In this document: one piece after another, positions 2,748 through 27,167 of the stretch | How the letters are laid out: each line of letters opens with the position of its first letter | Numbering within the stretch: position 1 is the first letter of the stretch | Virus record (IMG/VR): IMGVR_UViG_3300032217_000015 | Coordinates: 1-30,928 of that record | From: a virus | Length of the DNA: 30,928 bases | Reading direction: 5' to 3' (one strand) | The notes under the pieces: generated by a model | The model's input: only the letters and a program-made list of their open reading frames with translations | Told to the model about the DNA's origin: nothing | Database searches by the model: none | Position numbers and translations under genes: made by a program

Positions 2748-2966
2748 ATGGCTGAGACTGATTTTAAGTGCGGAAATTGCGAATATTTCGTAAACAAGCA
2801 AATCATGGGTATTTGTAGGCTGTATCCAATGCAGCAGAACAAACACGAAACTGATTGGTGTGGTCAACATAAAGCCATTCAGTACAGAAGCATTTACGAC
2901 ATCAAGACTGATGAAACTGTTGTAGTGCCCATGAAACGCAAATACACGAAGAAATCCGATGTTTAA
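2748..2966 (+). CDS. Cysteine-rich small protein, 72 aa (probable metal-binding knuckle)
   Basis: The N-terminal half holds CGNC at about residues 9-12, a Cys in GICRLYP near 23, and a Cys in DWCGQH near 38. This four-cysteine layout suggests one bound zinc or small Fe-S site. It resembles a small phage/bacterial family with C-x2-C, C-R-x-Y-P and D-W-C-G motifs. The C-terminus is basic (KRKYTKK). A good GGAGG stands 8-9 nt before the ATG. The gene overlaps the GroES-like gene by 8 nt, so the two are probably co-translated. Function is unknown. Confidence 0.65.
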   Translation: MAETDFKCGNCEYFVNKQIMGICRLYPMQQNKHETDWCGQHKAIQYRSIYDIKTDETVVVPMKRKYTKKSDV

Positions 2967-3216
2967 TCCGCTAAATGATCGAGTAGTAGTTCGACCCAAG
3001 ACACGGCACTTGTCGGACATTATCTACATCAACAACAAAGAACCGTTTAACGAAGGCACGGTGGTTGCAGTTGGCCCCAAGGTCTATGAAGCACAAGTTG
3101 GTGATTTCATAAAATACGGCAATGGCGATTACTTAAATTGGCCTGTTCACCGTGTAGACGACCAGGATTACCAAATCATTCAAGAAGCGGATATTTGCGC
3201 CATTGTCGAAGTGTGA
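2959..3216 (+). CDS. GroES-like co-chaperonin (Cpn10 family), 85 aa
   Basis: The product would cap the GroEL folding chamber. The Cpn10 signature is clear: PLNDRVVVRPKT at about residues 4-15, then a mobile-loop-like segment, EGTVVAVGP at about 32-40, VGDFIKYG near 47-54, and a C-terminal QEADICAIVEV corresponding to the family's final strand. At 85 residues it is shorter than E. coli GroES (97). The mobile loop lacks the usual Gly-Gly-Ile-Val-Leu pattern and instead shows DIIYI, and the roof hairpin is reduced. It overlaps the Cys-rich gene by 8 nt. Phage co-chaperonins such as T4 gp31 act in coat-protein folding, and this phage has a P22-type coat, a fold known to need GroEL/ES. The functional link here is inference. 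Confidence 0.85.
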   Translation: MFNPLNDRVVVRPKTRHLSDIIYINNKEPFNEGTVVAVGPKVYEAQVGDFIKYGNGDYLNWPVHRVDDQDYQIIQEADICAIVEV

Positions 3217-4300: not shown

Positions 4301-4455
4301 AACTAGGTCTATACGCCAACATTCACGCCAAGCAAGAACGAATTAAGCAAGAAAAGGCTGAAGGCGGCAAAGTGGAACGTATGCGTAAGCCTGGCTCCAA
4401 AGGTGCACCAACTGCGGCAGCATTCAAACAATCAACAAAGACTGCTAAAAAGTGA
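4297..4455 (+). CDS. Small conserved phage protein, 52 aa (LYANIHAKQ family)
   Basis: The product begins MKLGLYANIHAKQERIKQ and ends in RKPGSKGAPTAAAFKQSTKT. I recognise this signature from very many environmental phages, where the gene lies near terminase genes, but no function is known to me. It is strongly basic and probably disordered at the end. The ATG at 4297 overlaps the preceding TGA, and the stop overlaps the GTG start of the methyltransferase. Confidence 0.72.
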   Translation: MKLGLYANIHAKQERIKQEKAEGGKVERMRKPGSKGAPTAAAFKQSTKTAKK

Positions 4456-5702
4456 AAATTACCCCAAAGAAAGTCACAGAGCTAATTCCTTATGTAAATA
4501 ACAGCCGCACCCACTCTGACGAGCAAATTGCTCAGATTGCGGCAAGCATTAAGGAATTTGGCTGGACTAACCCCATACTGGTAGACGGTTCAAACGGCAT
4601 CATTGCAGGGCATGGAAGGCTATTAGCTGCACGAAAGCTAGGCCACAAAGAAGTTCCCACTATTGAACTGGCAGACTTGACCGAAACCCAAAAAAAGGCT
4701 TACATCATTGCCGACAACCGCTTGGCGCTTAACGCAGGATGGGACAATGAAATGCTAACCATAGAGTTAAACGACTTATTGGAAGATGGGTTTGCGTTAG
4801 AAATTTTGGGTTTTGACACCAAGGAACTAAATGCCCTGCTAGAGCCTGAAGTGGTGGAAGGGCTGACTGACGAGGATGCCGTTCCCGAAGTGCCTGATGA
4901 GCCTCAGACCAAGATGGGCGACATTTACCAATTGGGCAACCACCGCTTGATGTGCGGAGATAGCACCAGCACTGACGCTGTGGATAAGTTGATGGATGGG
5001 CAGAAAGCCGATATGGTATTTACCGACCCTCCATACAATGTGAACTTTACTGGTGCGCTGTCCAGCACTTCTAAAGGCGGAAAACTAATAAAAATGAGTG
5101 ATGGATATAAAAACCCATCTTCAACGCATGAAGTCATTAAAAATGACAAGATGGATAAGTCAGAGTTTCACGACTTTATGTTGGAGATACTTTCTGTCAT
5201 ATCCACTTATTGCCGTGGTGGTTTCTACATTTGTTTTTCTAGTTCCACTATTGATGAATTGTTAAACCCTTTGTTAGAAACTGGCATAGGCTGGAAAAGC
5301 ATAATTATTTGGAATAAAAACCAATCGCCTATGGGCGGTGGTCATTACAGGCGTAAATACGAACCTATTGCTTACGGATACTTTGAAAACAATTTCTACG
5401 GCAAAGATTACGCAGAAGATGATGTGTGGGATATAGCCAGAACCAAGAAGAATGATTTACACCCAACAATGAAACCCATTGAACTGGTGGAAAAAGCAAT
5501 TAAATGCTCAAGCACATCTAAAGATTTAGTATTAGATTTGTTTGGTGGCTCTGGTAGCACATTGATTGCTTGTGAAAAACAAAACCGCCACGCTAGGCTA
5601 ATGGAACTAGACCCAAAATACTGCGATGTAATAGTAAAGCGGTGGGAAGACTTTACAGGGAAGAAAGCCGTTCTATTGACAGAAGTAACCGAAAATTTGT
5701 AA
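4452..5702 (+). CDS. ParB-domain / DNA methyltransferase fusion, 416 aa
   Basis: This is an orphan-type N6-adenine (or N4-cytosine) DNA methyltransferase with a ParB/sulfiredoxin-like N-terminal domain, usual for phage enzymes of this class. The ParB-like domain spans roughly residues 1-110 and includes IIAGHGRLLAARKLG at 50-64. The methylase domain has the catalytic DPPY at 192-195, HPTMKP at 337-342, and the S-adenosylmethionine-binding FGGSGST at 364-370. The order (DPPY before the FxGxG motif) fits the beta class. The start is GTG in a 4-nt overlap with the preceding gene. No cognate endonuclease lies beside it, so self-protection against host restriction or a packaging-linked mark is more likely than a complete restriction system. 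Target sequence unknown. Confidence 0.92.
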   Translation: MKITPKKVTELIPYVNNSRTHSDEQIAQIAASIKEFGWTNPILVDGSNGIIAGHGRLLAARKLGHKEVPTIELADLTETQKKAYIIADNRLALNAGWDNEMLTIELNDLLEDGFALEILGFDTKELNALLEPEVVEGLTDEDAVPEVPDEPQTKMGDIYQLGNHRLMCGDSTSTDAVDKLMDGQKADMVFTDPPYNVNFTGALSSTSKGGKLIKMSDGYKNPSSTHEVIKNDKMDKSEFHDFMLEILSVISTYCRGGFYICFSSSTIDELLNPLLETGIGWKSIIIWNKNQSPMGGGHYRRKYEPIAYGYFENNFYGKDYAEDDVWDIARTKKNDLHPTMKPIELVEKAIKCSSTSKDLVLDLFGGSGSTLIACEKQNRHARLMELDPKYCDVIVKRWEDFTGKKAVLLTEVTENL

Positions 5703-5729: not shown

Positions 5730-6068
5730 ATGTCAGACGCACATATTCCTACCGATGAAACCCGCAAGATGGTTGAAAGCACCAGCGGGTTAGGCTTGCC
5801 GCATGAGCAAATAGCCATATTGGTGGGGATAGACGATAAAACCCTACGCAAGTATTACCGCACCGAACTAGACATGGGTAAGGCCAAGGCCAATGGGCAA
5901 ATAGCTAAAACGCTATATTCCAAAGCCGTGGCAGGCGATACGACTAGCCTTATTTGGTGGACAAAATCACAAATGCGCTGGTCTGAAACGGTTAAGCAGG
6001 AAGTAACAGGCGCTGATGGTGAGCCGCTACAAGGCATCCAAGTCACCTTTGTAAAGCCGAATGAGTGA
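5730..6068 (+). CDS. Putative terminase small subunit, 112 aa
   Basis: The protein begins with a helix-turn-helix-like segment at about residues 10-45 (GLPHEQIAILVGIDDKTLRKYY), followed by a helical region with AKANGQIAKTLYSKAVAGD and a WWTKSQMRW motif. This is the typical form of small proteins placed immediately before a PBSX-type large terminase, where the small subunit recognises the packaging site. It overlaps the large subunit gene by 8 nt. The 27-nt gap upstream has no clear ribosome binding site, which leaves the exact start less certain. Function rests on position plus the HTH; it might instead be another DNA-binding regulator. Confidence 0.7.
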   Translation: MSDAHIPTDETRKMVESTSGLGLPHEQIAILVGIDDKTLRKYYRTELDMGKAKANGQIAKTLYSKAVAGDTTSLIWWTKSQMRWSETVKQEVTGADGEPLQGIQVTFVKPNE

Positions 6069-7335
6069 CTTACAAGCCGTAATTGCGAAAGCAGAATTCC
6101 CCGTAAAGCTGGAAGGTCTGTTTAAGAAAAGCCGCTATAAGGTTGCATACGGTGGACGGGGCGGCGCTAAGAGTTGGGGCATTGCCAGGGCACTACTAAT
6201 CCTTGGGGCTAAAAAACCGTTGCGTATCCTGTGTGCTAGGGAATTTATGACTTCCATGCGGGATTCGGTTCACAAGCTACTGTGCGACCAGATTGAATCC
6301 TTGGGTTTGATGGGGTTCTACGAGATTACTCAGGCAAGCATTCGAGGCAAAAACGGAACGGAATTCTCTTTCGCTGGTCTAAAGAACAACATTGCCAACA
6401 TTAAATCGTTTGAAGGTGTGGACGTTTGTTGGGTAGAGGAAGCCCAGACGGTAAGCCGATTGTCGTGGAACGTGCTAATCCCTACCATCCGCAAAGAGAA
6501 TAGCGAAATATGGGTTAGCTTTAACCCTGAATTGGAAACAGACGAGACTTACCAGAGATTTGTTGTCAAGCCGCCTGATGACTGCATCCAAATCAAAGTG
6601 AACTGGTCGGATAACCCTTGGTTCCCTGAAACCCTGCGACTCGAGAAAGACGCGCTAAAGGAACGGGACGAGGAAGCCTATAACCAAGTTTGGGAAGGTT
6701 TATGCCGCCAGACGGTGGATGGGGCTATCTTTGCCAAAGAAATGCAGCAAGCAGAGAAAGAAGGCCGTATTACCCGTGTAGCCTATGACGCCACAAAGCC
6801 TGTTCATGCGGTGTTTGACCTTGGCTGGTCTGACAGCACGGCAATTTGGTTTTTGCAGTTTATAGGCATGGAAACTAGGCTAATCCGCTACATTGAAGAC
6901 AGCCAGAAGACTATTAGCTATTACATGGCAACGATGCAGACTTTTGGGTATGTGTACGACACTATCTGGCTACCGCATGATGCGGAAAATAAGACCTTAG
7001 CGGCAGCAGGGCGTAGTATTGACGACATTGTGAGAGCAGCAGGGTACAAAACTAACATCTTGCCTAGAGTGCCAATTACTGACTCAATCAACGCTGCAAG
7101 GACAATATTTCCTTCCTGTTGGTTTGATCGTGAGCACGCAGCGGAAGGTTTAGCTTGTCTGAGGCATTACCGCTATGAAGTTGACCCAGACACGGGGCAA
7201 TTTAGCCGTAGTCCATTGCACGACCATTATTCTCATGGTGCAGATGCTTTTAGATACATTGCGCTTATGATTAAAGAGCCTGCCAAGCGCAAGAAACAAG
7301 CTGCAATTGCCAATGTCGGCAGTTGGATGGGATAA
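6061..7335 (+). CDS. Terminase large subunit (PBSX/Terminase_3-like)
   Basis: This is the DNA-packaging motor, an ATPase that translocates DNA into the prohead and a nuclease that cuts it. The ATPase domain has Walker A GGRGGAKS at residues 31-38, Walker B VCWVEE at about 122-127, and coupling motif SFNP at 153-156. The RNase H-like nuclease domain has acidic residues in FDLGWSD (D253), LPHDAE (about D307) and HGADAFRY (about D395). The length of 424 residues is normal. It overlaps the putative small subunit and is followed by the portal gene, the standard packaging order. The family is certain; headful versus cohesive-end packaging cannot be told here. Confidence 0.95.
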   Translation: MSDLQAVIAKAEFPVKLEGLFKKSRYKVAYGGRGGAKSWGIARALLILGAKKPLRILCAREFMTSMRDSVHKLLCDQIESLGLMGFYEITQASIRGKNGTEFSFAGLKNNIANIKSFEGVDVCWVEEAQTVSRLSWNVLIPTIRKENSEIWVSFNPELETDETYQRFVVKPPDDCIQIKVNWSDNPWFPETLRLEKDALKERDEEAYNQVWEGLCRQTVDGAIFAKEMQQAEKEGRITRVAYDATKPVHAVFDLGWSDSTAIWFLQFIGMETRLIRYIEDSQKTISYYMATMQTFGYVYDTIWLPHDAENKTLAAAGRSIDDIVRAAGYKTNILPRVPITDSINAARTIFPSCWFDREHAAEGLACLRHYRYEVDPDTGQFSRSPLHDHYSHGADAFRYIALMIKEPAKRKKQAAIANVGSWMG

Positions 7336-7354: not shown

Positions 7355-9496
7355 ATGTCTGATTATCAAGCACAAACATCAAGCGCCGATGGGCGCATTA
7401 ATGACGCTATTAAGTTTTGGCGGCTGGTTAATGATGCTGACTCTACGAACCGTGCAGAAGCGTTGCAGGACGTTAAGTTTGCTGCTGGCGACCAATGGCC
7501 TGTTGAAATACAAAACTCGCGCAATGTGGAAGCCCGTCCTTGTCTAACCATTAACAAGATCGACGCTTACATTCGCCAGGTTACAAACCAACAGCGCCAG
7601 CAACGTCCGCGCATTAAAGTTCATGCCGTTAACAATCTAGCGGATTACAAAGTTGCTCAGGTAATTGAAGGTATTGCCCGTCACATTGAAGTCAATTCCA
7701 ACGCTGACACCGCCTACGATACCGCCTTTGATTACGCCGTGCGGATGGGTTGGGGGTATTGGAGGGTAAATACTCGCTACTCAAGCGAAGATAGCTTTGA
7801 CCAAGAAATCTACATTGACACGATTGACAATCCGTTTACCGTGTACTTTGACCCTAATTCCGTTTTACCTGATGGTTCAGACGCCGAACGCTGCCTGATT
7901 ACCACGGTAATGGATAAAAAAGTTTTCCGCGAACATTACCCAGACGCTGATGATGGCGCTAACTTCCAACAACGGTCAACTGGCGATGACACCGCAAGCT
8001 GGGTGACAAAAGAAGATATACGAGTTGCAGAGTTTTTTTACATTGAACGCGAACGTGCAAAGTTGTATCTGTTAAGCGATGGTTCACGGCATTTTGCCGA
8101 TTCGGATAGTTTTTTTGAACGTGTAGATGCTGCTGGCCTTACCGTACTTGATGAGCGCGACTCTTTCCGAAAAGCCGTTAAGTGGGTAAAGATGACGGCA
8201 ATGGAAATTTTGGAAGAAAAGACTTGGGCTGGTAAGTACATCCCTGTTATCCCTTGCTATGGCGCACAAGTTATTGTGGACGACAAGCGCAAGAAATATG
8301 GCTTAGTTAGGTTTGCCAAAGACCCTCAGCGGATGTATAACTTTTGGCGCACATCAATGACCGAGAGCATTGCACTTGCTCCAAAGGCAAAGTGGCTGCT
8401 TGCTGAAGGTCAAGATGAAGGGCATGAAAGCGAATGGGCAATGGCTAATATCAAGTCAAGCCCTGTCCTGCGCTATAAGCAAAAAGACATTGAAGGGGTT
8501 CCAGCGCCTGTTCCGCAAAGGTTGCAGCCTGAAGCGCCACCAGCAGGCATCATGGAGGCCGCAGGAGCCATTTCTGCCGACTTGCAGATGGTGTTGGGTA
8601 TCCTAGACCCAAATCAGCTTCCAAGCGGAAATATCAGCGGTAAAGCGTTGTCTGGACAACAAAACCAAGTTGACCTGTCTAACTTCCACTTCTACGACAA
8701 CATGACCCGCAGCATTCGGCATACGGGAAAAATCATTTTGGACTTGATTCCAAAGATTTACGACACGCAGCGGGTAATGCGAATTATTGGCGCAGATGGT
8801 CAGCCGAGCATGGAAACCATTAACGAACGTAAAGTTGGTGACGATGGCATTGAGGCTGTGCTAAACGATGTGACGGTTGGTGAGTATGACGTTGTGATGG
8901 ACACCGGCCCAGGATTCATGACTCGCCGCCAACAGGCTGTTGACGCAATGATGCCGCTGATGGCAAAGCCTGAACTGTTTAATGTGGCTGGTGACCTTGT
9001 GTTTAGGAACATGGACTTCCCTGGCGCAGACGTTATTGCAGATCGACTTGCCGCAATGAATCCCTTGTCGCAGATTGACGAGAAATCCGATATACCGCCT
9101 CAAGTGCAAATGCAATTGGCGCAAGCTAAGAAAACCGTCCAAGATATGCAGAATCAGATGGCGGCAATGCAATTGGCAATGAAGCAACGTGCAGACATTG
9201 AAAGCGTTAAACAGGAAGCAGAGACTAAACGCGAACTCATGCGTCAGACTGCCAAGGCACATAACACCGAAACAATGGCAGAAGTTAAGGTCAACGATCA
9301 AAATACTCGCGCTATTACTAGCCAAAACAAAACAGAGATTGAAGCTATTGTTGATTTGCTATTGCACCGCATGGATACGGGACGTTTAGAGATGGAAATC
9401 TCGCGTAGGAATTCCGAACAACAACAATATGCCCAATTTGCCGCCCAAGATATTAGTCAAGGGGCTAATCCATTAATTCAACAAATGACGCAATAA
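7355..9496 (+). CDS. Portal protein, P22-like, 713 aa
   Basis: This forms the dodecameric ring through which DNA enters and leaves the capsid. Its length is very close to P22 gp1 (725 aa), and the N-terminal part shows the family pattern: FWRLVNDADSTNRAEALQDVKFAAGDQWP, RPCLTINKIDAYIRQVTNQQRQ and a following PRIKVHAV. The C-terminal 130 residues are a long Gln- and Ala-rich helical stretch (about 585-690) equivalent to the P22 barrel/coiled-coil region that projects into the capsid. A ribosome binding site (AAAAGGGC) lies upstream. It is followed by a hairpin and the scaffold gene. Confidence 0.93.
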   Translation: MSDYQAQTSSADGRINDAIKFWRLVNDADSTNRAEALQDVKFAAGDQWPVEIQNSRNVEARPCLTINKIDAYIRQVTNQQRQQRPRIKVHAVNNLADYKVAQVIEGIARHIEVNSNADTAYDTAFDYAVRMGWGYWRVNTRYSSEDSFDQEIYIDTIDNPFTVYFDPNSVLPDGSDAERCLITTVMDKKVFREHYPDADDGANFQQRSTGDDTASWVTKEDIRVAEFFYIERERAKLYLLSDGSRHFADSDSFFERVDAAGLTVLDERDSFRKAVKWVKMTAMEILEEKTWAGKYIPVIPCYGAQVIVDDKRKKYGLVRFAKDPQRMYNFWRTSMTESIALAPKAKWLLAEGQDEGHESEWAMANIKSSPVLRYKQKDIEGVPAPVPQRLQPEAPPAGIMEAAGAISADLQMVLGILDPNQLPSGNISGKALSGQQNQVDLSNFHFYDNMTRSIRHTGKIILDLIPKIYDTQRVMRIIGADGQPSMETINERKVGDDGIEAVLNDVTVGEYDVVMDTGPGFMTRRQQAVDAMMPLMAKPELFNVAGDLVFRNMDFPGADVIADRLAAMNPLSQIDEKSDIPPQVQMQLAQAKKTVQDMQNQMAAMQLAMKQRADIESVKQEAETKRELMRQTAKAHNTETMAEVKVNDQNTRAITSQNKTEIEAIVDLLLHRMDTGRLEMEISRRNSEQQQYAQFAAQDISQGANPLIQQMTQ

Positions 9497-9560: not shown

Positions 9561-10460
9561 ATGTCAGAAGTACAGGATGCACCACAAGTGCAACCACGGC
9601 AGGCACAAACAGTGCTTACCAACGAGAATATGGCTGAATTCGCTGCCAAGAAATTAGGTTTAGCTGCACCAAGCGAGGCTGTAAAAACAGAGCCGCAACA
9701 GAGTGAACCAGTTGATAGCGAGAATGAGGCAACAGCGGTAGAGGATAGAAAACAGAATCCAAAATTGGAGAAAAGGTTTTCAGAGATTACCAAGCAACGA
9801 GAGGCGGCAAGGGCAGAGGCCCAAACCGAGCGCGAGGCTAGGCAACAACTGGAAGCAAAGTTGCGGGATTATGAGGAAAAGGCAAAGCCAAAAGCTGAAG
9901 CTAAATCTGAAGAAGAACCGCAGCCGAATCAGTTTTCCGATATGTACGAATACGCTAAAGCGTTGACAGACTATCGGGTTGAACAGCGGATGAATGAGGA
10001 AAAGCAGAAGGAAGTACAAGCAAAGGTACAAGCCGAACGCGACAAAGTAATTAATACTTGGTCTAAACGGGTTGAATCTGCGAAAAGCGAAATGCCTGAC
10101 TTTGAGGATATGGTTGGTTCTGCGGATGTTGCGGTAAGCAACGAAGTACGGGACGCCATTTTTGAATCAGAAGTTGGCCCTCGCATCTTGTATCACCTTG
10201 CTGAAAACCCGGAAATTGCTGAAAAACTGCAAGGCATGACTTTGACAAGAGCCTTGGCAACAATTGGGAAACTGGAGGCACAGTTTGAAAAGACAGAGCC
10301 TCAGACAAAGCCTACTGTTGGAAGAAGTAAAGCGCCAGCGCCGATTAATCCTATTAAGGCGACAGCAAACGGGCCGATTACCGAACTTGATTCAAATCGT
10401 CAGTTCCATGGTAATTACCAGGCTTGGAAAGCTGCTCGACTTGCAGGACGAATCCGCTGA
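9561..10460 (+). CDS. Scaffolding protein, P22 gp8-like, 299 aa
   Basis: The product is highly charged, rich in Glu, Lys, Gln and Ala, with long predicted coiled-coil stretches at about residues 65-120 and 130-175. Its length equals that of P22 gp8 (about 303). It ends in a basic helical tail (NYQAWKAARLAGRIR), matching the way P22-type scaffolds bind coat protein through a basic C-terminal helix-turn-helix. It lies between portal and coat, exactly where gp8 lies in P22. AGGATAAA precedes the ATG by a normal distance. The primary sequence of scaffolds is poorly conserved, so the call leans on position and form. Confidence 0.85.
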   Translation: MSEVQDAPQVQPRQAQTVLTNENMAEFAAKKLGLAAPSEAVKTEPQQSEPVDSENEATAVEDRKQNPKLEKRFSEITKQREAARAEAQTEREARQQLEAKLRDYEEKAKPKAEAKSEEEPQPNQFSDMYEYAKALTDYRVEQRMNEEKQKEVQAKVQAERDKVINTWSKRVESAKSEMPDFEDMVGSADVAVSNEVRDAIFESEVGPRILYHLAENPEIAEKLQGMTLTRALATIGKLEAQFEKTEPQTKPTVGRSKAPAPINPIKATANGPITELDSNRQFHGNYQAWKAARLAGRIR

Positions 10461-10489: not shown

Positions 10490-11710
10490 ATGAGCAATAA
10501 CCTGCTTACCATCTCCATGATTACCAACGAAGCGTTGATGGTCTTGGAAAATGAGTTGACTTTCTCCTCTGAAGTCATGCGCAACTATGACGATCAATTC
10601 GCTGTTACCGGCGCAAAGATCGGTGCGACCCTGAACGTTCGTCGTCCTGGACGCTTTATCGGCACTACTGGCCCTGCTTTGAACGTTGAAGACTTCAACG
10701 AAACGAGCGTGCCTGTTACCCTGTCAACACAGTTCCACGTTGATACCCAATTCACCACTCAAGACTTGGCACTGAGCCTGGACGCTTTCTCTGATCGCGT
10801 TCTGAAGCCTGCCGTGGCTGCTGTGGCGAATAAGATCGACTTTGACGGCACTACGATGGCTAAACTCAATACCGCCAATATCGTCGGTACTGCCGGTTCG
10901 CCTCCCACTTCGCTGTTGACATACCTGACTGCCCAAGCCTACTTGGATGCTGAGGGTGCGCCTCGCGATGGTCGCCGTTCGTGCATTATTGAGCCGTTCA
11001 CCGGCGCAACGATTGTGGACAGCTTGAAGGGTCTGTTTGTGCCTAGCGATAAAATCGGCGCACAATTCAGCAAAGGCATGATGGGCCGCGATTCTGCTGG
11101 CATGAACTGGAAAATGGATCAGAATATTTCTGCTCAAACTTTCGGTTCGTATTCGGGTACTGCGACTATCAACACCAGCACTGATACCGGCATTTTGACT
11201 TCTGGTTGGGCACAAACATCGTCTTTGACGCTGTCCAAGACCGGCACTTTCACGCCTCTGGTTGGTGATACTTTCACTATCGCTGGTGTGTATGCTGTCA
11301 ACCCACAAAACCGTCAAGCCTACGGTAGCAACAAGCTGCGCAATTTCGTCGTTACCGCTATCAGCGGAAATGCCGTCACCGTTAGCCCTGCTGTTATCTC
11401 CGCTGGTCAGTTCCAGAACGTGTCTATCACTAGCCCTGGCGCTTCTGCTGTGACCCCGTTCAACCAAGCTGGTGCAGTATCTCCGCAGAACATCGTGATG
11501 CACAAAAACGCATTTACGCTGGCTACGGCTGATCTGGACTTGCCTGATGGCGTAGTGTTCGCTGGTCGTGCTTCTGATAAGGACTTGGGCCTCTCGATGC
11601 GTATTGTTCGTCAGTACACCATCAACAACGATTCCATCCCGACTCGCGTTGATGTACTGTACGGTTGGGCGCCTCTGTATACTGAGTTGGCTTGCCGAGT
11701 GGCTTCTTAA
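10490..11710 (+). CDS. Major coat protein, P22 gp5-like, 406 aa
   Basis: This is the HK97-fold shell protein. It begins NNLLTISMITNEALMVLEN, the characteristic P22-coat-family N-terminal helix, followed by NVRRPGRF at about residues 49-56 and VDTQFTTQDLALSLDAFSDR near 84-103. A beta-rich insertion at about 225-330, including VGDTFTIAGVYAVNPQNRQ, corresponds to the telokin-like I-domain of P22 coat. The length is slightly below P22 (430 aa). AAGGAAATGAA gives a strong ribosome binding site. GC and codon use appear more biased than in the flanking genes, as expected for the most expressed protein. P22 coat needs GroEL/ES to fold, which makes the phage GroES-like gene relevant. Confidence 0.95.
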   Translation: MSNNLLTISMITNEALMVLENELTFSSEVMRNYDDQFAVTGAKIGATLNVRRPGRFIGTTGPALNVEDFNETSVPVTLSTQFHVDTQFTTQDLALSLDAFSDRVLKPAVAAVANKIDFDGTTMAKLNTANIVGTAGSPPTSLLTYLTAQAYLDAEGAPRDGRRSCIIEPFTGATIVDSLKGLFVPSDKIGAQFSKGMMGRDSAGMNWKMDQNISAQTFGSYSGTATINTSTDTGILTSGWAQTSSLTLSKTGTFTPLVGDTFTIAGVYAVNPQNRQAYGSNKLRNFVVTAISGNAVTVSPAVISAGQFQNVSITSPGASAVTPFNQAGAVSPQNIVMHKNAFTLATADLDLPDGVVFAGRASDKDLGLSMRIVRQYTINNDSIPTRVDVLYGWAPLYTELACRVAS

Positions 11711-12588: not shown

Positions 12589-14220
12589 ATGACCGTCAAT
12601 CTTTCAATGTTGGCTGGTGCTGGTGCACAATTTTTTGACAACACTGGCATTATTCTTTCTGGCGGTCTTGTTTATACTTATGCGGCTGGAACTACAACGC
12701 CACAAGCTGCATATACAACAAGTGCGGGAAACATTGCACATTCCAATCCTATTGTTCTAGACTCGGCTGGTCGTGTTTCTTCTGGTGGAGAAATTTGGTT
12801 AACCGATTCTGTTTCATATAAGTTTGTTTTAAAAACATCTATTGGAATTACTATTGGAACTTACGATAATGTAACTGGCAATTCAAGTGGAATTTATGCT
12901 GCTTTTGCCGCATCATCTGGTTCTTCTCTTGTTGGTTATTTGCCAGCAGGTTCTGGGGCTGTTCAGACTACGGTGCAGGCCAAGTTGAGGCAAACTGTAA
13001 GCGTAATGGATTTTGGCGCTACTGGCAATGGCACTACTGATGACACGGCGGCATTTACCAATGCAGCTACATATGCTGCTAGTATTAATGGTGATGTATA
13101 TTTGCCACCGCCAGCAACTACATATAAATTAAGTGGCAATCCCACAGTTCCAACAAATGTAAATTTTCAAGGTTCATTAACTTGGTTAAGTGGTGCAGGA
13201 GTTTTACCTGTTGAACAGTTTATTGCATTATCTGAAAGTATTTCCCCAAATGTTTTTTCTGTCAAATCTTTAAATTATTCTGAAACCGCATCTAACGAAA
13301 CCACAAGAAAATGGGCTGTTTGCGGATGGGTAAATTATAAAAATTCTCCTGCATCTGGTTATGCTGGAACAGCCACTGATGCAGTTGGAGTAGATGGACG
13401 AGGAATTGCTAGTGTTGCAAATGGTCGGGTATGGGGTATTGTTGGACTTGGTCAACTTAATACTGGTGTTTCAGGTGTAGCACAAGCCTATTCAGCAGAA
13501 TTTGACATTAACAACAACTATGCAAATATTACTGCTTTTGATGCTTCTCCAACTGCCAAGGGAATAGTTATTGCGTCTGGTGGAACTTATCAACCAGAAA
13601 CTGCTGGTCTTGTAATTTCCACAAAAACACCTACAAACACATTAGGCGATAATAGATTTTTTGCTGGGTGGAGATTTTATCAAGATTGTTACAAAGAATT
13701 TGGAATTCATTTTGATGACAATTGCAAAAATGTAGCAATAAGAATTCCAAGTACAGCCATAGGAGTAAGATTTACCAAATCAAATACTTACAATTTTGAT
13801 TTTTCTTTAAATGACATTTCATATCGAGGTCAAATTTTTGCACCAGTTGGCAAAGGAATTGATGTTCTTAAATCAACGGGTTCACAATTAATTGGCATCA
13901 ACGAAACATTCGTTAATTTCAATGTACCTTTGTGTGAAAAAACAAATACTCAAACCGTTCCAACTTCTTTAGATGCAACTGCTGCTAATATTTTTAGCAT
14001 ATCTACGGCAGGCACAATTTCCGGTGGGATTATTCAAGGTGTAGACGGTCAAAGAATTACAATTATTAACGCATCTTCTGGTACGGTAAATGTAAGTAAA
14101 AACGCTAATATGAGAACTATTGGTGGAGCAACAGTAGCACTTGCACCTTTGCAATTGGTCGAATTTGTATATGTTTCTCCAACTTATTTTCAAATTGGTG
14201 CTCCAGTTTCGCTTGCTTAA
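12589..14220 (+). CDS. Tailspike with pectate-lyase-like beta-helix, 543 aa
   Basis: This is probably the host-recognition spike. Residues 1 to about 95 form an N-terminal particle-binding module (FFDNTGIILSGGLVYTYAAGT, followed by an LDSAGRV strand and an IWLTDSVSYKFVL strand) seen in many podovirus tailspikes. The linker AVQTTVQAKLRQTVSVMDFG leads into GATGNGTTDDTAAF near 143-156, the classic start of a pectate-lyase-3 right-handed beta-helix. The C-terminal half is strand-rich and ends in a small fold near 490-543. No catalytic residues can be assigned from sequence alone. The gene is visibly more AT-rich than the coat gene, consistent with exchange of receptor-binding modules. AAGGATAAATT gives the ribosome binding site. 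Confidence 0.85.
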   Translation: MTVNLSMLAGAGAQFFDNTGIILSGGLVYTYAAGTTTPQAAYTTSAGNIAHSNPIVLDSAGRVSSGGEIWLTDSVSYKFVLKTSIGITIGTYDNVTGNSSGIYAAFAASSGSSLVGYLPAGSGAVQTTVQAKLRQTVSVMDFGATGNGTTDDTAAFTNAATYAASINGDVYLPPPATTYKLSGNPTVPTNVNFQGSLTWLSGAGVLPVEQFIALSESISPNVFSVKSLNYSETASNETTRKWAVCGWVNYKNSPASGYAGTATDAVGVDGRGIASVANGRVWGIVGLGQLNTGVSGVAQAYSAEFDINNNYANITAFDASPTAKGIVIASGGTYQPETAGLVISTKTPTNTLGDNRFFAGWRFYQDCYKEFGIHFDDNCKNVAIRIPSTAIGVRFTKSNTYNFDFSLNDISYRGQIFAPVGKGIDVLKSTGSQLIGINETFVNFNVPLCEKTNTQTVPTSLDATAANIFSISTAGTISGGIIQGVDGQRITIINASSGTVNVSKNANMRTIGGATVALAPLQLVEFVYVSPTYFQIGAPVSLA

Positions 14221-26216: not shown

Positions 26217-27167
26217 ATGAGTGTCTCAGATGATGAATTTGTAGAACTTTGGAAATTGCATCCATCACCGTCAAAGATGGCTAAAACTCTTGGTAGCACT
26301 GAACGCAACATCTATAGACGCAGAAACCATATTGAAGGCAAACTCAATATAACACTTCCCACAAATAAGGAATCGTACACCGCATCTCCTGTAAGACCAA
26401 AATCAGAACTTGGAATTGAAAATGGCACAGTTATTATTTTTTCTGACGCTCATTTCTGGCCTGGGATACGGACTACTGCTTTTCAGGGTTTATTGTGGGC
26501 GATTGAAAAACTACAGCCGAAAGCAGTTATTTGCAATGGTGATGCTTTTGACGGTGCATCTATCTCTCGCCATCCACCTTTGGGATGGGTTCACACACCC
26601 AGCGTGATTGATGAACTAAAAGCCTGCAAAGAGATGCTTGGTGAAATAGAGGAAACCGCCAAAAAAGCACGGCAAAATGTAAAGCTAATGTTTACAATGG
26701 GCAATCATGATGCTCGATTTGAAATGCGTTTGGCGTCCAATGCACCACAATACGTACAAACACCAGGCTTTAAGTTATCCGACCATTTTACAGATTGGTC
26801 ATTTTGTATTTCGGTTTGGGTCACTGATGACATTATTGTCAAGCACCGATACAGGAATGGCGTACACGCTACCCACAACAATACGGTAGGGGCTGGTAAA
26901 AGCATTGTGACGGGGCATTTGCACAGTTTAAAGGTCACGCCCTATGCAGACTACAACGGCAACCGTTTTGGCGTGGATACGGGCACTCTGGCAGAGCCTC
27001 ATGGCCCTCAGTTTGATTATTCTGAAGAAAACCCGTTGAACCATCGTTCTGGTTTTGCCGTGCTGACAATCAAGGATGGGAAGCTATTGTGGCCTGAGTT
27101 GGTACACAAATGGAATGAAGGACAGATCGAATTTAGGGGTGAGGTTGTTGATGTAAGTGGTCTTTAA
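26217..27167 (+). CDS. Calcineurin-like metallophosphoesterase with N-terminal HTH-like segment, 316 aa
   Basis: All five metal-site motifs are visible: SDAH at about residues 76-79, GDAFD at 108-112, GNHDA at 162-166, VKH near 208-210 and GHLH at 233-236. Such phage enzymes hydrolyse phosphodiesters or phosphomonoesters in nucleic acids or nucleotides. The first 45 residues (LWKLHPSPSKMAKTLGSTERNIYRRRN) resemble a resolvase- or repressor-type helix-turn-helix, suggesting DNA targeting. AAGGACTTACC gives the ribosome binding site, and a 46-nt gap separates it from the endolysin. It is the last plus-strand gene before the convergent junction. The substrate is not deducible. Confidence 0.88.
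   Translation: MSVSDDEFVELWKLHPSPSKMAKTLGSTERNIYRRRNHIEGKLNITLPTNKESYTASPVRPKSELGIENGTVIIFSDAHFWPGIRTTAFQGLLWAIEKLQPKAVICNGDAFDGASISRHPPLGWVHTPSVIDELKACKEMLGEIEETAKKARQNVKLMFTMGNHDARFEMRLASNAPQYVQTPGFKLSDHFTDWSFCISVWVTDDIIVKHRYRNGVHATHNNTVGAGKSIVTGHLHSLKVTPYADYNGNRFGVDTGTLAEPHGPQFDYSEENPLNHRSGFAVLTIKDGKLLWPELVHKWNEGQIEFRGEVVDVSGL

Follow-up and report, generated by a model that had tools for sequence, protein, structure and literature searches.

The window analysed here, a 30,928-base virus record, carries a gene for a short phage-encoded co-chaperonin of the Cpn10 (GroES) type, which appears to be a core gene of a group of uncultured freshwater podoviruses with a P22-type coat, and whose product probably serves as a lid for host GroEL, folding late proteins during virion production. 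We propose this role because the product has both the sequence and the predicted fold of a Cpn10, because its mobile loop is conserved, because the phage has no GroEL of its own, and because the gene is constantly linked to packaging and head genes. Seven copies of the protein would form a ring, their mobile loops would dock onto the apical domains of host GroEL, and the resulting cage would fold head or tail proteins of the phage, the coat included, at a time when host GroES may be limiting. It is already well known that phages carry GroES genes, short ones included. The features discussed below are collected in Table 1.

Table 1. Features of the window with their positions, strand and supporting evidence.
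Feature	Positions	Strand	Evidence or remark
Four-cysteine (CxxC..GxC..C) HiPIP-like small protein (Cys4), 72 aa	2748..2966	+	weak PF18524 match, below cut-off
Overlap of Cys4 and Cpn10 genes, 8 nt	2959..2966	+	probable translational coupling
Cpn10/GroES-like co-chaperonin gene, 85 aa	2959..3216	+	PF00166; phrog_3188; AlphaFold model matching GroES and gp31
Mobile-loop codons, residues 14-32 (KTRHLSDIIYINNKEPFNE)	2998..3054	+	loop length comparison; residues 19-28 with pLDDT <50; selection on residues 20-32
DIIYI codons, residues 20-24	3016..3030	+	counterpart of G24-IVL of GroES; 76 distinct relatives
Roof-loop remnant, residues 40-46 (PKVYEAQ)	3076..3096	+	9 aa shorter than E. coli GroES; sequence comparison
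Probable small terminase	5730..6068	+	phrog_309, E 2.7e-15
Large terminase (TerL)	6061..7335	+	PF04466
P22-type portal, possible client	7355..9496	+	PF16510, E 1.8e-173
Scaffolding protein	9561..10460	+	phrog_8865, E 1.9e-39
P22-type coat, 406 aa (about 44 kDa), candidate client	10490..11710	+	PF11651, E 2.8e-35

A short Cpn10 in a P22-type phage

The 85-aa product matches PF00166 (Cpn10) with E 1.1e-8, scoring 35.4 bits where the cut-off is 21.1, with residues 2-83 aligned to positions 2-93 of the profile, and it matches phrog_3188 (co-chaperonin GroES) with E 1.2e-9. An AlphaFold monomer model built from 35 relatives has a mean pLDDT of 79.6, residues 19-28 being the only segment below 50, and it gave 32 PDB matches at E <= 0.001, which comprise GroES, Cpn10 and Hsp10 chains, gp31 of phage T4 (1g31) and one chain of 7ekq, identified by sequence search as the Cpn20 co-chaperonin. 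The predicted fold is the Cpn10 beta-barrel, and the conserved N- and C-terminal strands would be compatible with a heptameric ring. The Cpn10 landmarks named in the initial annotation are thus upheld by both profiles and by the model, and the predicted fold, on which that reading could have failed, also speaks for it. The same is true of the coat, which had been called P22-type and matches the corresponding profile (Table 1).

With E. coli GroES (97 aa), to which it is about 28% identical when the structures are aligned, the protein shares the fold, the strand order, a hydrophobic patch in a disordered loop and the conserved terminal strands, but it is without the roof hairpin (9 residues fewer, measured from AVG to VGD), its mobile loop is shorter by 4 residues with SD for GG, and it has 1 residue fewer at the N-terminus and 2 more near the C-terminus. 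T4 gp31, which substitutes for GroES, is also without roof loops (PMC6318259); it is likewise short between the counterparts of AVG and VGD, is phage-encoded, has a hydrophobic triad (LII in gp31), and matches the model structurally with E 9.4e-4. However, the mobile loop of gp31 is lengthened (22 residues against 16 in GroES; PMC6318259) and its client coat gp23 is 56 kDa, whereas here the loop is shortened and the coat has about 44 kDa. The pairing of a longer loop with a coat that outgrows the GroES cage is therefore not seen in the window. Kinship in sequence is not seen either, as identity to gp31 is 14% in the structural alignment and gp31 was absent from the PDB-sequence profile search.

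Since short viral GroES proteins are common (among the best 50 viral-protein structural matches, about 19 are no longer than 92 residues), a length of 85 residues would not be strange for a viral lid. Two GroES proteins of uncultured phages in BFVD, A0A221S421 (85 aa, 29% identical to the window Cpn10) and A0A6J7WHX6 (83 aa, 31%), are similar in size and fold, with TM 0.72-0.79. Judged from the sequence comparisons, what seems unusual is the combination of a missing roof with a shortened loop that has no GG.

Elsewhere in the window, a fusion of a ParB-N-like domain with an N6/N4 DNA methyltransferase (PF02195, PF01555; phrog_498) lies upstream of the terminase at 4452-5702, and a pectate-lyase/depolymerase-like protein, possibly a tailspike, is encoded at 12589-14220 with the coat on one side and adaptor genes on the other. 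A calcineurin-like phosphoesterase gene (PF00149, phrog_221) at 26217-27167 adjoins the GH108 lysin gene. No tRNA genes were found in the window as a clue to the host, and scans for promoters and terminators yielded no more than in shuffled DNA.

The mobile loop and its conservation

The stretch from DR to AVG is 33 residues long in the window Cpn10, compared with 37 in E. coli GroES and 37-38 in Latescibacterota genes (21 parseable). SDIIYI stands where E. coli GroES has AGGIVL, SD taking the place of the GG before the IVL triad, with the alignment inside the shortened loop uncertain by about one residue. Among 76 distinct close relatives, a sample that favours conservation because relatives were picked by exact peptides, some of them within the loop, position 20 is occupied by D, E or N, G being absent there, positions 21 and 22 are invariably I, position 23 takes Y, F, I or W, and position 24 takes V or I, which gives the pattern S-[D/E/N]-I-I-[Y/F/I/W]-[V/I]; Cpn10s of the same type that were reached via the coat instead have the same pattern. 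The replacement of the usual GGIVL-type contact by DIIYI, first remarked in this one sequence, is therefore a real change that is kept across the close family. The loop still has its conserved hydrophobic triad (II[YFIW][VI]) within the segment of low pLDDT, but in a shorter form and without GG.

Codon data for the same 76 distinct sequences, in which synonymous change is near saturation (pS 0.69), gave a pN/pS of 0.17 over the whole gene, with 0.145 for residues 20-24 and 0.033 for residues 25-32, and the C-terminal strand is also under strong purifying selection, while the roof remnant is the most variable part of the protein (0.53 for residues 41-46). A chance open reading frame was rejected on account of the PF00166 match and the low overall pN/pS at near-saturated synonymous change, and a decayed GroES on account of the strong purifying selection on the loop and the C-terminal strand.

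In E. coli GroES the IVL triad touches helices H and I of GroEL, G24D makes the protein temperature sensitive, and L27A abolishes binding (PMC3514286). The window Cpn10 has D at the place of G24, and other Cpn10 types have D, E or H at the counterpart of L27, which together suggest a different fit to GroEL and not its loss. As this D and the varying counterpart of L27 are akin to mutations with a weakening effect in E. coli GroES, one should not take it for granted that the protein binds a GroEL of the E. coli type.

Lid, coat and host chaperonin among relatives

At least 461 close relatives of the Cpn10 are present in IMG/VR, of which 80 (identity 76-93%) were retained for the close-family analysis, and there are 571 relatives of a sister type, which keep the roof loop, have the loop SSVIIV, and may overlap with the close-type set. 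Cpn10 was found by Pfam in 18 of 24 coat contigs and by tblastn in one more, the other five ending or beginning near the terminase; a P22-type coat is present in 19 of 24 close-type Cpn10 contigs, the other five being incomplete, and in 16 of 16 sister-type contigs. Among assessable contigs this makes 19/19 coat contigs with Cpn10 and 35/35 Cpn10 contigs with coat. That Cpn10 is missing from part of the group was rejected, as the apparent gaps are contigs that end near the terminase or a gene missed by Pfam, and Cpn10 is apparently a core gene of this group. HTVC023P-type pelagiphages, too, have GroES among their core genes (PMC9599517). No Cpn60/GroEL is encoded in the window or in the 24 related records that were checked, and a scan of bacterial genomes for a prophage host found none, yielding only two Latescibacterota GroES genes, one of them followed by a GroEL-sized open reading frame.

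Among named phages, the isolate Xanthomonas phage PBR31 (MT119766) has an annotated GroES in the same slot upstream of TerL, portal, scaffold and a P22-type coat that is 56% identical to that of the window, but its GroES is unlike the window protein, with a roof loop, 43 instead of 33 residues from DR to AVG, and SAGILV in the loop, and no Cys4 gene is annotated before it. The Manatee Spring phages MW202674 and MW202520 share the gene order including the Cys4 gene, and their P22 coats are 75-77% identical to the window coat, but their lids are just 36-37% identical, with loops SSIIDV and STIIDV. The slot holds further loops in other loci, namely SESLDLSMMAG (L098), SALFISDTSYP (L108), SAIPGFVYAEEYN (L146) and SDLWIQTAEAP (L152). 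Outside the group, locus L204 (DSL-LC05) has at 9731-9979, between portal and terminase, an 82-aa GroES that has diverged strongly and whose loop is shorter still.

Two observations concern the coat contigs as such. Locus L260 (contig G057, 46,124 bases) has two P22-type coat genes, at 636-1856 and 36844-38070, which may stem from two phages or from an assembly that was joined or repeated. In L057 (contig G034) and L250 (contig G054) the coat gene is split across both ends of a contig of 34-35 kb, pointing to a complete genome of this length that is circularly permuted.

The initial annotation had suggested that the gene product may be a dedicated cap that adapts host GroEL to this particular coat, in the manner of T4 gp31. 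On this reading the lid would be tailored as gp31 is to gp23, and the loss of the roof and the change in the loop would suit the coat. That Cpn10 and P22-type coat consistently go together in the group fits such tailoring, as does the absence of roof loops from gp31 too, but we consider it unlikely, for several reasons. The premise that P22 coat needs GroEL/ES was an overstatement: wild-type P22 coat does bind GroEL, but strong dependence on it is a property of folding mutants. A coat of this size gives no reason for a wider cage, and P22-coat phages without a lid exist, since no Cpn10 was found in five records from outside the group, namely Rhodoferax phage P26218, Pseudomonas phage PAE2, EBPR podovirus 1 and the spring phages MW202483 and MW202691. 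Cpn10 is also lacking in the spring phages MW202710 and MW202462, which have a related terminase and another capsid protein.

A further objection comes from loci with similar coats. Locus L152 and loci L109 and L132 have coats at a distance of 0.04 (96% identical), whereas their Cpn10s are at 0.65 (about 35% identical) and their loops differ; likewise, the coat of L095 is 86% identical to that of the window, but its lid is 36% identical and roofed. Over the 28 loci with the full module, the mean pairwise distance is 0.47 for Cpn10, 0.40 for scaffold, 0.30 for portal, 0.23 for TerL and 0.15 for coat, and the rank correlation with Cpn10 distance is 0.37 for coat, 0.51 for portal and 0.46 for scaffold. 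We divided the Cpn10s into type A (roofless, SDIIYV), type B (roofed) and type C (the mixed remainder); on the coat tree, four changes are required for the roofless type and its monophyly is rejected (AU p 0.020), while with the TerL tree monophyly is not rejected (AU p 0.072), the test being weakened in both cases by the fact that the types were named after the sequences had been seen.

On these trees and distances, one of the two, lid or coat, has been exchanged, and whichever it was, the type of lid is not tied to the coat. Tailoring to the coat thereby loses ground, and adaptation to host GroEL is left as the simpler explanation; host GroEL, more probably than the coat, would determine which loop is used. 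A tentative extension, which we regard as possible but less than even in its chances, is that the slot beside the terminase never stands empty but takes interchangeable lids, with or without a roof and with several loops, which follow host GroEL and not the coat.

Other readings, the Cys4 gene and significance

The protein could also act as a competitor or modulator of host GroEL, displacing host GroES and diverting folding away from host proteins without any particular phage client. The altered turn and triad could change the affinity, and the lack of a GroEL in the phage record agrees with it, but the position by the packaging and head genes, in the group as well as in PBR31, fits virion assembly better, and we find this reading rather improbable.

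The overlap with the upstream Cys4 gene had been taken as a sign of a co-translated partner. An overlap of 4, 7, 8 or 20 nt is present in 78/78 assessable relatives (77 of 80 and one added by direct look, with two lacking upstream sequence), and the four-cysteine motif is present in all 78 upstream-gene matches, so this part stands and coupled expression of the two genes is likely; a partnership general to the group does not, since no Cys4 gene lies upstream of the sister-subtype Cpn10 in the members examined. Although the constancy of the overlap within the subtype would suit a Cpn10 fold reused as a virion part or in a complex with the Cys4 protein, that is very improbable in view of the sister subtype, of one spring phage of another capsid type that has a HiPIP-like gene and no Cpn10, and of a loop that is conserved and predicted to be disordered as in GroES.

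With the lid for host GroEL as the preferred reading, these findings extend phage co-chaperonins to a large uncultured group of freshwater podoviruses, as an apparent core gene. The main interest, more than in the single gene, is in the exchange of lid types within one conserved slot, as the natural pairs of nearly the same coat with very different lids allow one to test whether the client or host GroEL selects the lid of a phage, a question which gp31 by itself cannot answer. If lids do track host GroEL, the slot would be a phage module that matches infection to the chaperonin of the host.
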